From Bisgaardia hudsonensis (lineage in GTDB: Bacteria > Pseudomonadota > Gammaproteobacteria > Enterobacterales > Pasteurellaceae), in the NCBI RefSeq assembly GCF_004345785.1, contig NZ_SLXI01000001.1, positions 248,001 through 312,000 on the forward strand: DNA of 64,000 nt, in the 5' to 3' direction. Numbering within the stretch: the first letter of the stretch is position 1; each line of letters starts with the position of its first letter. The notes beneath the pieces are model-generated. The model saw only the letters and a list, made by a program, of their open reading frames with translations. It ran no database searches and was not told where the DNA came from. Shown piece after piece: positions 22,124-30,158 of the stretch. The position numbers and the translations under genes are program-made.

Positions 22124-22420
22124 TTACTCGCTTTTATCTTCTTCAGCTACACTAGGAACATCTTGTTGATGAGTTTGATGATATTGTTGCTGATTTGTTT
22201 GTCCATTATGATGAGAAACAGTACGAGCAGGTACGACTGTTGATATTGCGTGTTTATAGACCATTTGATTAACGGTATTTTTTAGTAAAATAACGAATTG
22301 ATCAAAAGATTCTATTTGACCTTGTAATTTGATTCCATTGACTAAATAGATTGATACAGGGATACGCTCACGACGTAACGCATTTAAGTAAGGATCTTGT
22401 AACGATTGTCCTTTTGCCAT
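22124..22420 (-). CDS. hfq: RNA chaperone Hfq
   Basis: Sm-like hexamer that pairs small RNAs with mRNAs. The Sm1 segment ([19 protein letters not shown]) and Sm2 segment ([10 protein letters not shown]) are intact, including Gln8 and the YKH motif that binds U-rich sRNA tails. The C-terminal tail (about residues 66-98) is rich in His and Gln and ends acidic. Length 98, similar to E. coli (102). It would be the chaperone for the sRNA candidate at 28491-28562. Confidence 0.97.
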
Positions 22421-27168: not shown

Positions 27169-28356
27169 TTATTTTACTGTAATACGAGCAAATTTACGTT
27201 TACCTACTTGATATACCGCCGTTGATGTCTTAATTATTAATTTTGTATCATCAACTTTTTCGCCGTCAATTTTAACCGCTCCTTGTTTAACCATACGCAT
27301 TGCATCAGATGTTGAATTGACTAAGTTGGCTTCTTTTAATAAGTTAGCTAATCCGATTTCACCCTCAAAGGTAAATTCTGGCATTTCATCGGGTATTGCT
27401 CCCTTTTGGAAGCGGTTAATAAATTCTTGTTCTGCTGCATCGGCATCGGCATCGGAGTGGAAACGTGCAATAATTTCTTTAGCAAGTAGAATTTTTACAT
27501 CACGAGGATTGCGTCCATTTTCTACTTCTTGTTTTAACTGCTCAATTTCTGTTAGTGGACGGAATGAAAGTAAATTATACCAGTCCCACATTAAATCATC
27601 AGAAATAGACATTACTTTACCAAACATTTCTGATGGGATATCGTCAACGCCAATGTAATTTCCTAATGATTTAGACATTTTTTTCTCGCCATCTAACCCT
27701 ACTAACAGTGGTAAGGTAATGGCAACCTGTGGTTTTTGTCCTGCTGATTTTTGTAATTCGCGTCCCATTAATAAATTAAAGGTTTGATCTGTTCCACCGA
27801 GTTCAACATCGGCTTCTAAGGCAACGGAGTCTTGACCTTGTAGTAATGGATAAATAAATTCGTGAATAGCAATTGACTGATTATTCGCAAAACGTTTTTT
27901 AAAATCATCTCGTTCTAGCATTCTAGCTACGGTATAGTTTGAGGCTAAACGAATCATACCTACTGTACCGAGTTCATTTAACCATTCAGAATTAAAGACT
28001 ACTCGTGTTTTTTGAGGATCAAGAATTTTAAAAATTTGTTCTTTGTAAGTTTCGGCATTACGTAATACATCTTCACGAGAAAGCGGTGGACGAGTGGCAT
28101 TTTTACCAGAAGGATCGCCTACTGTTGCAGTAAAATCACCAATTAGAAAAATAACTTCGTGACCAAAATTTTGAAATTGACGTAATTTATTTAAAACAAC
28201 AGTGTGTCCTAAATGAATATCAGGCGCAGTAGGATCTGCTCCTAATTTTACTCTTAGTGGGCGATTTTCTTTTAATTTTTCGATCAGATCTTGTTCTGAA
28301 TAGATTTGATCGGTGCCACGTTTTAATTCCGCAAGAACAGTATTAATATCTGTCAT
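27169..28356 (-). CDS. tyrS: tyrosyl-tRNA synthetase
   Basis: Charges tRNA-Tyr. Class I signatures: the HIGH variant HLGH in APDIHLGHT (about residue 48) and KMSKS in KKMSKSLGN (about 230), with a C-terminal S4 RNA-binding domain. The 395-residue length and sequence belong to the H. influenzae/TyrZ type rather than the 424-residue E. coli TyrS. No T-box or other leader is visible. Monocistronic. Confidence 0.96.
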
Positions 28357-28490
28357 TTATAAATTCCTGTTTATTTGTAATATTTAGTTATTGTGCTTAG
28401 TATTATAAGGATTATTAATAAAATGAAAAGTAAAGATAAATTTGTTTTAGGTGAGATATGAAATTATCTACTTTTTCAAGTGAACTAAAT

Positions 28491-28526
28491 AAAAAAAAAG
28501 CACATCTTTTGTGGGGGAGATGTGCT
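28491..28526 (-). terminator. intrinsic terminator of the candidate sRNA (and of ydfG read-through)
   Basis: A 9-bp stem with a 10-nt C-rich loop is followed on the minus strand by nine T residues. It lies about 90 nt after the ydfG stop, so it ends both any ydfG transcript and the predicted short RNA. Confidence 0.88.
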
Positions 28527-28562
28527 AAAAATGTTGGAGTGATTATCTATTGTTATTTTGAT
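28491..28562 (-). ncRNA. candidate Fur-repressed small RNA, about 70 nt
   Basis: No open frame lies here. A sigma70 promoter with an embedded Fur box (28569-28597) reads leftwards and predicts a start near 28562. A clean intrinsic terminator ends the transcript: stem AGCACATCT (28499-28507 complement) with AGATGTGCT (28518-28526) and nine T residues (28491-28499 on the minus strand). The loop is C-rich (CCCCCACAAA) and the 5' half is A/U-rich and single-stranded, with CACUCCAAC as a possible anti-Shine-Dalgarno seed. Promoter, operator, short non-coding body and a U-rich tail fit an Hfq-dependent iron-sparing sRNA like RyhB in function. It may correspond to H. influenzae HrrF, which I could not compare. 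The hairpin might instead only terminate ydfG. Confidence 0.65.
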
Positions 28563-28568
28563 GTGTTT

Positions 28569-28597
28569 ATGATAATCATTATCAAATTATCTGTCAA
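28569..28597 (-). promoter_or_regulatory. sigma70 promoter overlapped by a perfect 7-1-7 Fur box
   Basis: On the minus strand, TTGACA (28592-28597) and TATCAT (28569-28574) are separated by exactly 17 bp. TGATAAT-C-ATTATCA (28570-28584, plus strand) is a perfect inverted repeat matching the Fur 7-1-7 consensus and covers the -10. Iron-loaded Fur would block initiation. Confidence 0.8.
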
Positions 28598-28617
28598 TAT
28601 CTAAATGCAAATAATTC

Positions 28618-29376
28618 TCAATTATTTTTCTTTGATACATTTAATGCTGAAAATGTCTGAGCAGTTGGCATTATTTCTATGCTATTAATATTGACGTGAG
28701 ATGGCTGTTGATTAAGCCACAACACAATATTAGCTATATCCTCAGGTTTTATATAATTTACATTTTCATATAAGTTTTGTGCTTTTTGCTCATCACCTTT
28801 AAACCTAACTAAAGAAAAGTCCGTTTCGCCACATAAACCAGGTTCAACATTGGATACCCTGATATTTTTGCCTGCAAGATCGGCTCTTAAATTAAGAGAG
28901 AATTGTTTCACAAAGGCTTTAGTTGCTCCATAAACATTACCACCAGGGTAAGGATAGGTCCCTGCGATAGATCCTATATTGATAATATGTCCTGTATTGC
29001 GTTCGACCATATTGGGTAGCACTAATCGAGTCATAAACATTAATCCTTTGATATTTGTGTCAACCATATTTTGCCAATCGTCAAGATTTGCTTTATTCGC
29101 TACTTCTAAACCTAATGCAAGTCCAGCATTATTTACTAACAAATCTATATTTTGATATTCTTGGGGAATAGAATTAAAGGCTTGCTGTGTTTCTGGTAGA
29201 TTTTGAATATCAAAATTTAAAGGAATAAATTTTTCTTGAAATTGTTGCTTTAATTCATTTAATTTAGGTAAGCGTCGCCCTGTACCAATAACGAGATAAC
29301 CATTGTTAATTAATGTTTTGGTAATTGCTAATCCAAAACCTGATGTAACCCCTGTAACTAATGCAATTTTTGACAT
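28618..29376 (-). CDS. ydfG: NADP-dependent 3-hydroxy acid / L-allo-threonine dehydrogenase YdfG-like
   Basis: Classical short-chain dehydrogenase of 252 residues. The cofactor loop GVTSGFG (about residues 9-15), NNAG, and the active-site YGATK (about 152-156) are present. Alignment by eye with E. coli YdfG is good throughout, including GNVYGATKAFV and HVNINSIEIMP near the end. YdfG oxidises L-allo-threonine and serine and reduces malonic semialdehyde. It ends only 21 nt from the -35 of the candidate sRNA promoter. Follows sfsA by 65 nt. Confidence 0.88.
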   Translation of the reverse strand: MSKIALVTGVTSGFGLAITKTLINNGYLVIGTGRRLPKLNELKQQFQEKFIPLNFDIQNLPETQQAFNSIPQEYQNIDLLVNNAGLALGLEVANKANLDDWQNMVDTNIKGLMFMTRLVLPNMVERNTGHIINIGSIAGTYPYPGGNVYGATKAFVKQFSLNLRADLAGKNIRVSNVEPGLCGETDFSLVRFKGDEQKAQNLYENVNYIKPEDIANIVLWLNQQPSHVNINSIEIMPTAQTFSALNVSKKNN

Positions 29377-29441: not shown

Positions 29442-30158
29442 TTATTCTACAAATGGTACAAGCTTAGTTAGAGAAAGTGCGGTCGGTTTTTCTTGAGAAA
29501 ATTCAAATTCCCCTGCATAGGCATAAGCTTCCACCCCCTCTTGTATTGCTTGCTTTAATAATTCTGCATATTTGGGATCAATATATTCTGCCGCCTTAAA
29601 ACAATCAAAACCATTGTGTAATCCTGCAAAAAAAACCACCGCTCTATGCCCTAATTTTTTCATTGCCATTAATTCTCGCAAATGTTTTTGACCACGAGTA
29701 GTAACCGCATCAGGAAACATACCAATAGTATTTTTAACTAAAGTAATGGATTTTACTTCTACATAACAATCTGGCAGATTCTCGCCTTTTAATAAAAAAT
29801 CAATACGACTATTTTCTTCGCCATATTTTACTTCAGGGTAAATTTCATCATACATTGCTAATTCTTTGATTTTTTTATTTTCTAAGGCTTCTTGAGTAAG
29901 TTGATTTGAACGATGTGTATTAATACAGACCATATTGCCATTTTTTAACTGGGTAAGTTCCCAAGATTGTGGGTATTTTCTTGTTTTACTATCAGAGGTT
30001 GAATACCAAATGGTATCGCCTTTTTCACCACAGCCCGTCATTGCTCCTGTATTTGCACAATGGATTGTAATTATTTCGCCATTGCTTAATTCCACATCAG
30101 CGAGAAAACGTTTATAACGGCGAATTAATGTTGCCGATTTTAATGTTGGGAGTTGCAT
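29442..30158 (-). CDS. sfsA: DNA/RNA nuclease-like protein SfsA
   Basis: SfsA was named for suppression of a sugar-fermentation defect in E. coli; it has an OB-like N-terminal region and a restriction-endonuclease-like C-terminal fold. Conserved pieces are [10 protein letters not shown] near the N-terminus, EVKSITL (about 133-139) and GVEAYAY near the end. Length 238 (E. coli 234). A USS lies in the 3' end near 29476. It is divergent from the TonB receptor gene. Biochemical role in the cell is uncertain. Confidence 0.92.

Follow-up and report, generated by a model that had tools for sequence, protein, structure and literature searches.

Two Fur-bound small RNAs (sRNAs) are induced by low iron in Aggregatibacter actinomycetemcomitans; one is a homologue of HrrF and the other is predicted to target nitrite reductase (PMC5156373). 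The respiratory reductases of this species fall under iron restriction and are Fur activated (PMC5156373), and nrfA is downregulated under iron restriction in two genera (PMC3091793, PMC5156373). In Shewanella, RyhB represses nrfA and destabilizes its mRNA (PMC5826389). A 2010 study of Actinobacillus pleuropneumoniae commented that a role for such an sRNA "remains to be demonstrated" (PMC3091793), and HrrF was reported from RNA-seq as the sole Fur-regulated sRNA of Haemophilus influenzae 86-028NP (PMC4144887). Here we describe a locus of Bisgaardia hudsonensis, a member of the Pasteurellaceae, that almost certainly encodes a real small regulatory RNA (28491-28562) switched off by Fur when iron is plentiful.

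The locus is in a 64,000-nt stretch of genomic DNA, all of which was analyzed (the window). It occupies positions 28491-28597 and is on the minus strand. Its features are as follows.

28592..28597, minus strand: -35 hexamer TTGACA (sequence reading)
28569..28574, minus strand: -10 hexamer TATCAT, inside or adjacent to the Fur box; TATCAT in 48/61 upstream regions
28570..28584, minus strand: Fur box, perfect 7-1-7 palindrome TGATAATGATTATCA (14/14 matches)
28606..28620, minus strand: weaker Fur-like element TGAGAATTATTTGCA just upstream of the promoter, seen in the sequence and kept in most orthologues
28491..28562, minus strand: sRNA, about 72 nt, non-coding; predicted start at about 28562, placed from the promoter
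28533..28549, minus strand: conserved single-stranded seed UAGAUAAUCACUCCAAC, complementary to nrfA ribosome-binding sites
28499..28526, minus strand: terminator hairpin of 9 bp with invariant CCCCAC in its loop (28508-28517); second seed
28491..28499, minus strand: U9 tail of the intrinsic terminator (sequence reading)

A first-pass annotation of this DNA had described a promoter fully overlapped by a perfect Fur palindrome, without giving the strand. The promoter, TTGACA-17 bp-TATCAT, is indeed present on the minus strand, with 11/12 matches, and is the top promoter-like site of the region. The palindrome is also perfect; the whole genome has two such 7-1-7 boxes and none of a reversed control pattern. 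However, "fully overlapped" was slightly too strong because the box spans the promoter spacer and most of the -10 hexamer, and the -35 hexamer is outside its 15 bp. An element similar to the one just upstream of the promoter, GAGAATTATTT(G/T)CATT, precedes the sRNA in many relatives, and the upstream element may have a regulatory function. The same annotation had read about 70 nt without an open frame, ended by a strong terminator with a C-rich loop and nine T residues, and all of this is present. From the predicted start there are about 36 unpaired nucleotides and then a single hairpin with the C-rich loop CCCCCACAAA. The fold has an energy of -11.2 kcal/mol (z = -4.5), which 0/200 dinucleotide shuffles equaled. 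Our terminator scan did not call this hairpin, but only because the loop limit of the scan is 8. No ATG occurs between the predicted start and the terminator, and the stem covaries (see below), which marks the RNA as non-coding. The conserved Fur box overlapping a sigma-70 promoter fits the class of Fur-repressed sRNAs.

The first homologue search, by blastn with a 118-bp query, detected clear homologues across most of the other Pasteurellaceae genera, whereas 24 genomes from other families gave no convincing match. A covariance model was built from an in-register subset and then from a structure-fitted set, and was fitted to 31 copies. An alignment of the interval across the Pasteurellaceae had been suggested in the first-pass annotation, and the interval proved to be conserved. 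The model found the sRNA in 137/140 Pasteurellaceae genomes and 42/43 genera (E <= 0.001), G011 being the only genus among the 43 with no detected copy. Carriers include Haemophilus seminalis, H. sputorum, A. actinomycetemcomitans, Pasteurella canis, and Mannheimia and Actinobacillus species, and all 10 examined species of the genus of H. seminalis have it. In a 149-genome sample of the order there was a single match outside the family (G037, 38.8 bits), which we rejected as merely a similar terminator.

Homologues keep the Fur box, a TATCAT-type -10, the core (A/G)UAAUCACUCCAAC, and the loop CCCCAC. The longer core UAAUCACUCCAA(C) and the loop are nearly invariant across them, and the -35 hexamer is TTGACA in many and weaker in others. 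Compensatory changes were found at 9/10 stem pairs in the covariance alignment, in which 97.3% of stem cells pair, compared with 31 to 58% in slid controls. The covariation score was 0.715 versus 0.222 for shuffled alignments, and 0/500 shuffles reached it; the alignment is structure fitted and so biased in favor of the stem, yet the margin is large. The best Fur box matches at 12 to 14 of 14 positions in every one of the 61 distinct upstream regions, whereas the best of 50 shuffles per region mostly has 10 or 11.

Some genomes show variations. Two carry tandem copies, G020 (L102/L174, C1:338126-338201 and C1:338329-338403) and G085 (L167, C17:15469-15543 and C17:15628-15702), and both copies have a promoter and a Fur box of their own, a pattern resembling that of PrrF1/PrrF2. 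A second copy in L111 seems to have decayed. An insertion of about 25 nt separates promoter and core in L196, L197, L163, and L172 (Haemophilus seminalis, Rodentibacter, and relatives). A record titled Pseudomonas stutzeri NCTC11607 (L015/L193) resembles a Pasteurellaceae genome, with a size of 1.9 Mb, this sRNA, and a Haemophilus-like nrfA.

The neighboring genes are as follows.

27169..28356, minus strand: tyrS, conserved downstream neighbor, same strand as the sRNA (TIGR00234; synteny)
28618..29376, minus strand: ydfG-type SDR gene, upstream neighbor in this genome only among those examined (synteny)
29442..30158, minus strand: sfsA, usual upstream neighbor in relatives (TIGR00230; synteny)

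The flanks of 30 sRNA loci mostly have sfsA upstream and/or tyrS downstream. The usual order is sfsA-sRNA-tyrS, and in B. hudsonensis ydfG is interposed between sfsA and the sRNA. Therefore, the first-pass description of the sRNA as downstream of ydfG is correct for this genome but is a local arrangement. Close relatives of ydfG occur in Helicobacter, Streptococcus, and Neisseriaceae records, which suggests horizontal transfer. A lactoferrin/transferrin-family TonB-dependent receptor gene (TIGR01776; 30383-33616, plus strand) adjoins sfsA, about 1.8 kb from the sRNA.

The hairpin directly follows a same-strand gene from which no other terminator separates it, and it may additionally end read-through transcripts. 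The locus might thus be no independent RNA gene but simply a terminator for ydfG (or sfsA) transcripts beside a fortuitous Fur box. We consider this very unlikely. A bare terminator leaves the invariant core outside the hairpin and the invariant loop unexplained, the promoter and Fur box are at a nearly fixed distance in 61/61 upstream regions, and the sRNA is kept where the upstream gene differs. It is just as improbable that the Fur box serves a downstream gene such as tyrS and that the RNA is the 5' leader of that gene. Although tyrS is on the same strand, about 135 nt past the terminator, a strong terminator with nine U residues intervenes and tyrS is not an iron gene. Also, several genomes keep the sRNA with a downstream gene that is different or on the opposite strand. 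An independent, Fur-repressed RNA gene is the reading that we carry forward.

The first-pass annotation had left open whether this RNA is an HrrF homologue or a distinct one, and had proposed a covariance search with the HrrF and RyhB models. Rfam 15 had no match at the gathering score within the window. At E <= 10 there were 21 matches in 28440-28640, but none was HrrF, RyhB, or JA01-04, so neither proposed model recognizes the sRNA. Membership in the RyhB, PrrF, or JA01-04 families was rejected at both thresholds. In ten orthologous loci, including those of two A. actinomycetemcomitans strains (L186 and L191), there was no Rfam match at the sRNA. An unrelated Aggregatibacter Rfam family was detected elsewhere in the same loci, indicating that this search was sensitive.

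That the sRNA is HrrF itself, a recent paralogue, or a relocated HrrF copy appears extremely unlikely. The two RNAs do share a regulator, a family range, and a similar length, and CUCCAA(A)CA occurs in both in the species that we looked at. However, HrrF (RF02728) is a separate gene in B. hudsonensis (G000:C1:87720-87842; 77.0 bits, with an Rfam cutoff of 77), and RF02728 matches neither the candidate (E <= 10) nor its orthologues. A local alignment of the two RNAs was no better than shuffles, and their neighbors differ (sfsA/tyrS for the sRNA and pmbA/hpt for HrrF). Most Pasteurellaceae genomes carry both; HrrF was found in 109/140 (E <= 0.01) compared with 137/140 for the new sRNA (E <= 0.001), counts that are not strictly comparable because one model was built on a broader set. 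Orthology with HrrF is thereby refuted, and the alternative of a distinct sRNA was the right one because HrrF is rejected and RyhB is unmatched. HrrF of B. hudsonensis and those of L112 and L120 contain (A/G)CUCCAA(A)CA, which resembles the new core, and there may be partial overlap between the two RNAs in seed and targets. Judged against Rfam and the literature examined, the sRNA represents an RNA family that is new, distinct, and spread across the Pasteurellaceae, with a function of a known type. Because it has no Rfam entry, it goes unnoticed in current genome annotation.

This finding questions the claim that HrrF is the sole Fur-regulated sRNA in Haemophilus. Haemophilus copies of the new sRNA keep TTGACA, TATCAT, and the Fur box TGATAACAATTATCA (13 of 14). 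In the RNA-seq study (PMC4144887), the sRNA was either missed or silent in the medium used, or strain 86-028NP differs.

We took the hypothesis of a nitrite reductase target beforehand from the A. actinomycetemcomitans work (PMC5156373) and compared nrfA loci of Pasteurellaceae and others. In Haemophilus, Aggregatibacter (including A. actinomycetemcomitans), and several other genera, the nrfA leader has the sequence (U)UGGAGUGAUUAUC-GUG(start). It can form 13 to 14 uninterrupted Watson-Crick pairs with the sRNA core, from the Shine-Dalgarno sequence up to the GTG start codon; a single mismatch interrupts the match in Pasteurella, Volucribacter, and others. The pairing has a z score of -8.5 in H. 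seminalis and -5.2 in A. actinomycetemcomitans DSM 8324, and 0/400 dinucleotide shuffles per leader were as good. Through its insertion of about 25 nt, the H. seminalis sRNA gains further pairs within the first nrfA codons (GCGUUC with GAACGC), and the energy reaches -31.5 kcal/mol. In Actinobacillus relatives, the nrfA ribosome-binding site UUUGUGGGGG(A) instead pairs over 9 to 11 nt with the terminator loop. A shorter site, UUGUGGGAGG, occurs in several additional genera, and the sites of G035, G031, and Muribacter are weak or partial. The B. hudsonensis site, UGUUGGGGGUAUC, is moderate (-14.2 kcal/mol; 6/400 shuffles as good). The first-pass annotation had named CACUCC and CCCCCAC as pairing seeds of a Fur-repressed sRNA, and this is strongly supported; both are invariant or nearly so, and which of them pairs with the nrfA ribosome-binding site depends on the clade. 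A Fur-box-like palindrome of the TGATAAAAATTATCA type lies about 70 to 110 nt upstream of the nrfA start in many genera (L275, L286, L341, L344, and others) and might be a direct Fur site at nrfA, besides the sRNA.

CUCC and CCCCC can pair with any purine-rich Shine-Dalgarno sequence. The sRNA could therefore be genuine and Fur repressed with neither nrfA nor iron genes as its main targets, the matches simply reflecting anti-Shine-Dalgarno seeds. The moderate nrfA score in B. hudsonensis fits this, as do its top-ranked genes, which include non-iron genes such as cdd. However, the nrfA match runs 8 to 10 nt past the Shine-Dalgarno sequence to the start codon. By different seeds in two clades, nrfA ranked first among the sampled genes, 1 of 396 by the core in Aggregatibacter (G030) and 1 of 715 by the loop in Actinobacillus (G010). 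In B. hudsonensis it ranked 12 by core and 8 by loop among 728 genes. These ranks come from about 20 to 40% of each genome, with the nrfA stretches included on purpose, heuristic start codons, and no accessibility term. Furthermore, G011, the genus with no detected sRNA, has neither a core-type nor a loop-type nrfA site, and nrfA does fall under iron restriction in the two genera cited above. We regard the anti-Shine-Dalgarno explanation as unlikely, and nrfA, encoding the pentaheme nitrite reductase, as the clearest predicted target of the sRNA.

Other candidate targets came from the same rankings. In Actinobacillus, top genes by the core seed include iscS, glpB, fdnG, pfkA, ilvD, hemC, glpT, ispH, and frdA, and those by the loop seed include nrfA, a DASS transporter, and nrfD. 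The third core-seed match in Aggregatibacter is cyaY. We compared the top 28 Actinobacillus places with the 67 genes of A. pleuropneumoniae whose expression declines when iron is restricted (PMC3091793). Shared genes are nrfA, nrfD, fdnG/fdxG, frdA, and pfkA, with a di/tricarboxylate transporter also shared by family. The expected overlap is 0.9 (Poisson P of about 0.002 for five, assuming about 2,100 genes per genome), with the comparison scored by hand between related, not identical, species. The genes nrfD, fdnG/fdxG, frdA, iscS, ilvD, and cyaY are likely further targets, as judged from predicted pairing. An exact search for the antisense of the seed (GTTGGRGTGRTT) across relatives mostly returned chance coding sites, and a match to it in G011 is not the sRNA, with no terminator or loop following. 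In two genera (L251, L256; G015, G016), codons 4 to 8 of ccmD match the antisense of the sRNA core. We did not count this match because the site is in a conserved protein motif (SWSDF), making a coding coincidence possible. The cydA and sucA matches in B. hudsonensis were treated as weak because they are not backed by strong sites in the comparison genomes.

Altogether, the promoter, Fur box, RNA, conservation, and nrfA complementarity are established at the level of sequence and comparison. Published expression data from relatives agree, with an iron-repressed RNA, direct Fur binding, and a fall of nrfA under iron restriction. The strong predicted nrfA pairing and the many iron genes among the top matches suggest a RyhB-type sRNA. 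We think it likely that this is a family-wide, RyhB-like, Fur-repressed trans-acting RNA that pairs with the Shine-Dalgarno regions of mRNAs for iron-rich proteins to save iron. When iron is sufficient, Fe-Fur would occupy the box overlapping the promoter and block transcription. When iron is scarce, presumably in B. hudsonensis too, the RNA of about 72 nt would be made and would end at its own terminator. Its two nearly invariant seeds, the linear UAAUCACUCCAAC and the CCCCCAC of the terminator loop, would then pair with Shine-Dalgarno regions, block ribosome entry, and so save iron by translational repression, perhaps with mRNA decay and Hfq involvement. In this way the sRNA probably keeps nitrite reductase and other iron-rich respiratory enzymes from being translated. 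The hfq gene is within the window (22217-22402), the sRNA has the usual U tail (U9), and it may be of the Hfq type as first annotated. However, HrrF stability is Hfq independent (PMC4144887), so Hfq dependence cannot be assumed for the new sRNA.

We also lean toward a broader interpretation. This second Fur-repressed, nearly universal RNA, wider in distribution than HrrF, may be the true RyhB equivalent of the Pasteurellaceae. It would reach the same target, nrfA, through the linear core on the Haemophilus/Aggregatibacter/Pasteurella side and through the C-run of the terminator loop on the Actinobacillus side, so that regulation was kept and the pairing site swapped. One sRNA would thus seemingly have retained its target while switching its seed. 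If our proposal is correct, the Pasteurellaceae, which include pathogens and commensals of humans and animals, have in this sRNA the RyhB-like connection that had been missing between Fur and the long-observed shutdown of anaerobic respiratory enzymes when iron is restricted.

How does the sRNA compare with those already described? RyhB (Enterobacteriaceae, Vibrio, and Shewanella) is likewise Fur repressed, and the predicted repression at ribosome-binding sites of iron-using proteins would be a further likeness. However, RyhB has no sequence or covariance-model match to the new sRNA, a different seed, and a different locus, which makes it an analogue and not a fellow member. PrrF1/PrrF2 of Pseudomonas and NrrF of Neisseria are also Fur repressed and iron sparing, and PrrF is tandem, as the new sRNA is in two relatives. 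The sole PrrF match at the sRNA (16.1 bits and E = 1.5, compared with a cutoff of 90) shows no relation, and there is no NrrF match at the sRNA. HrrF has the same layout, with a Fur box over the promoter, a length of about 70 to 100 nt, an intrinsic terminator, and a range restricted to the Pasteurellaceae. In contrast, its locus is pmbA-hpt, whereas the new sRNA is between ydfG and tyrS (sfsA/tyrS in relatives), and its reported targets are modABC, asnAC, and nrdB, not nrfA. JA01-JA04 (RF02729-RF02732) are iron- or Fur-regulated sRNAs of A. actinomycetemcomitans, in the same bacterial family, but their models match neither the sRNA in the window nor its A. actinomycetemcomitans orthologues. 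A further counterpart is the second low-iron-induced sRNA of A. actinomycetemcomitans 624 (PMC5156373), which is iron repressed, Fur bound, and not HrrF and has a predicted nitrite reductase target. It is probably the same RNA as the one described here.
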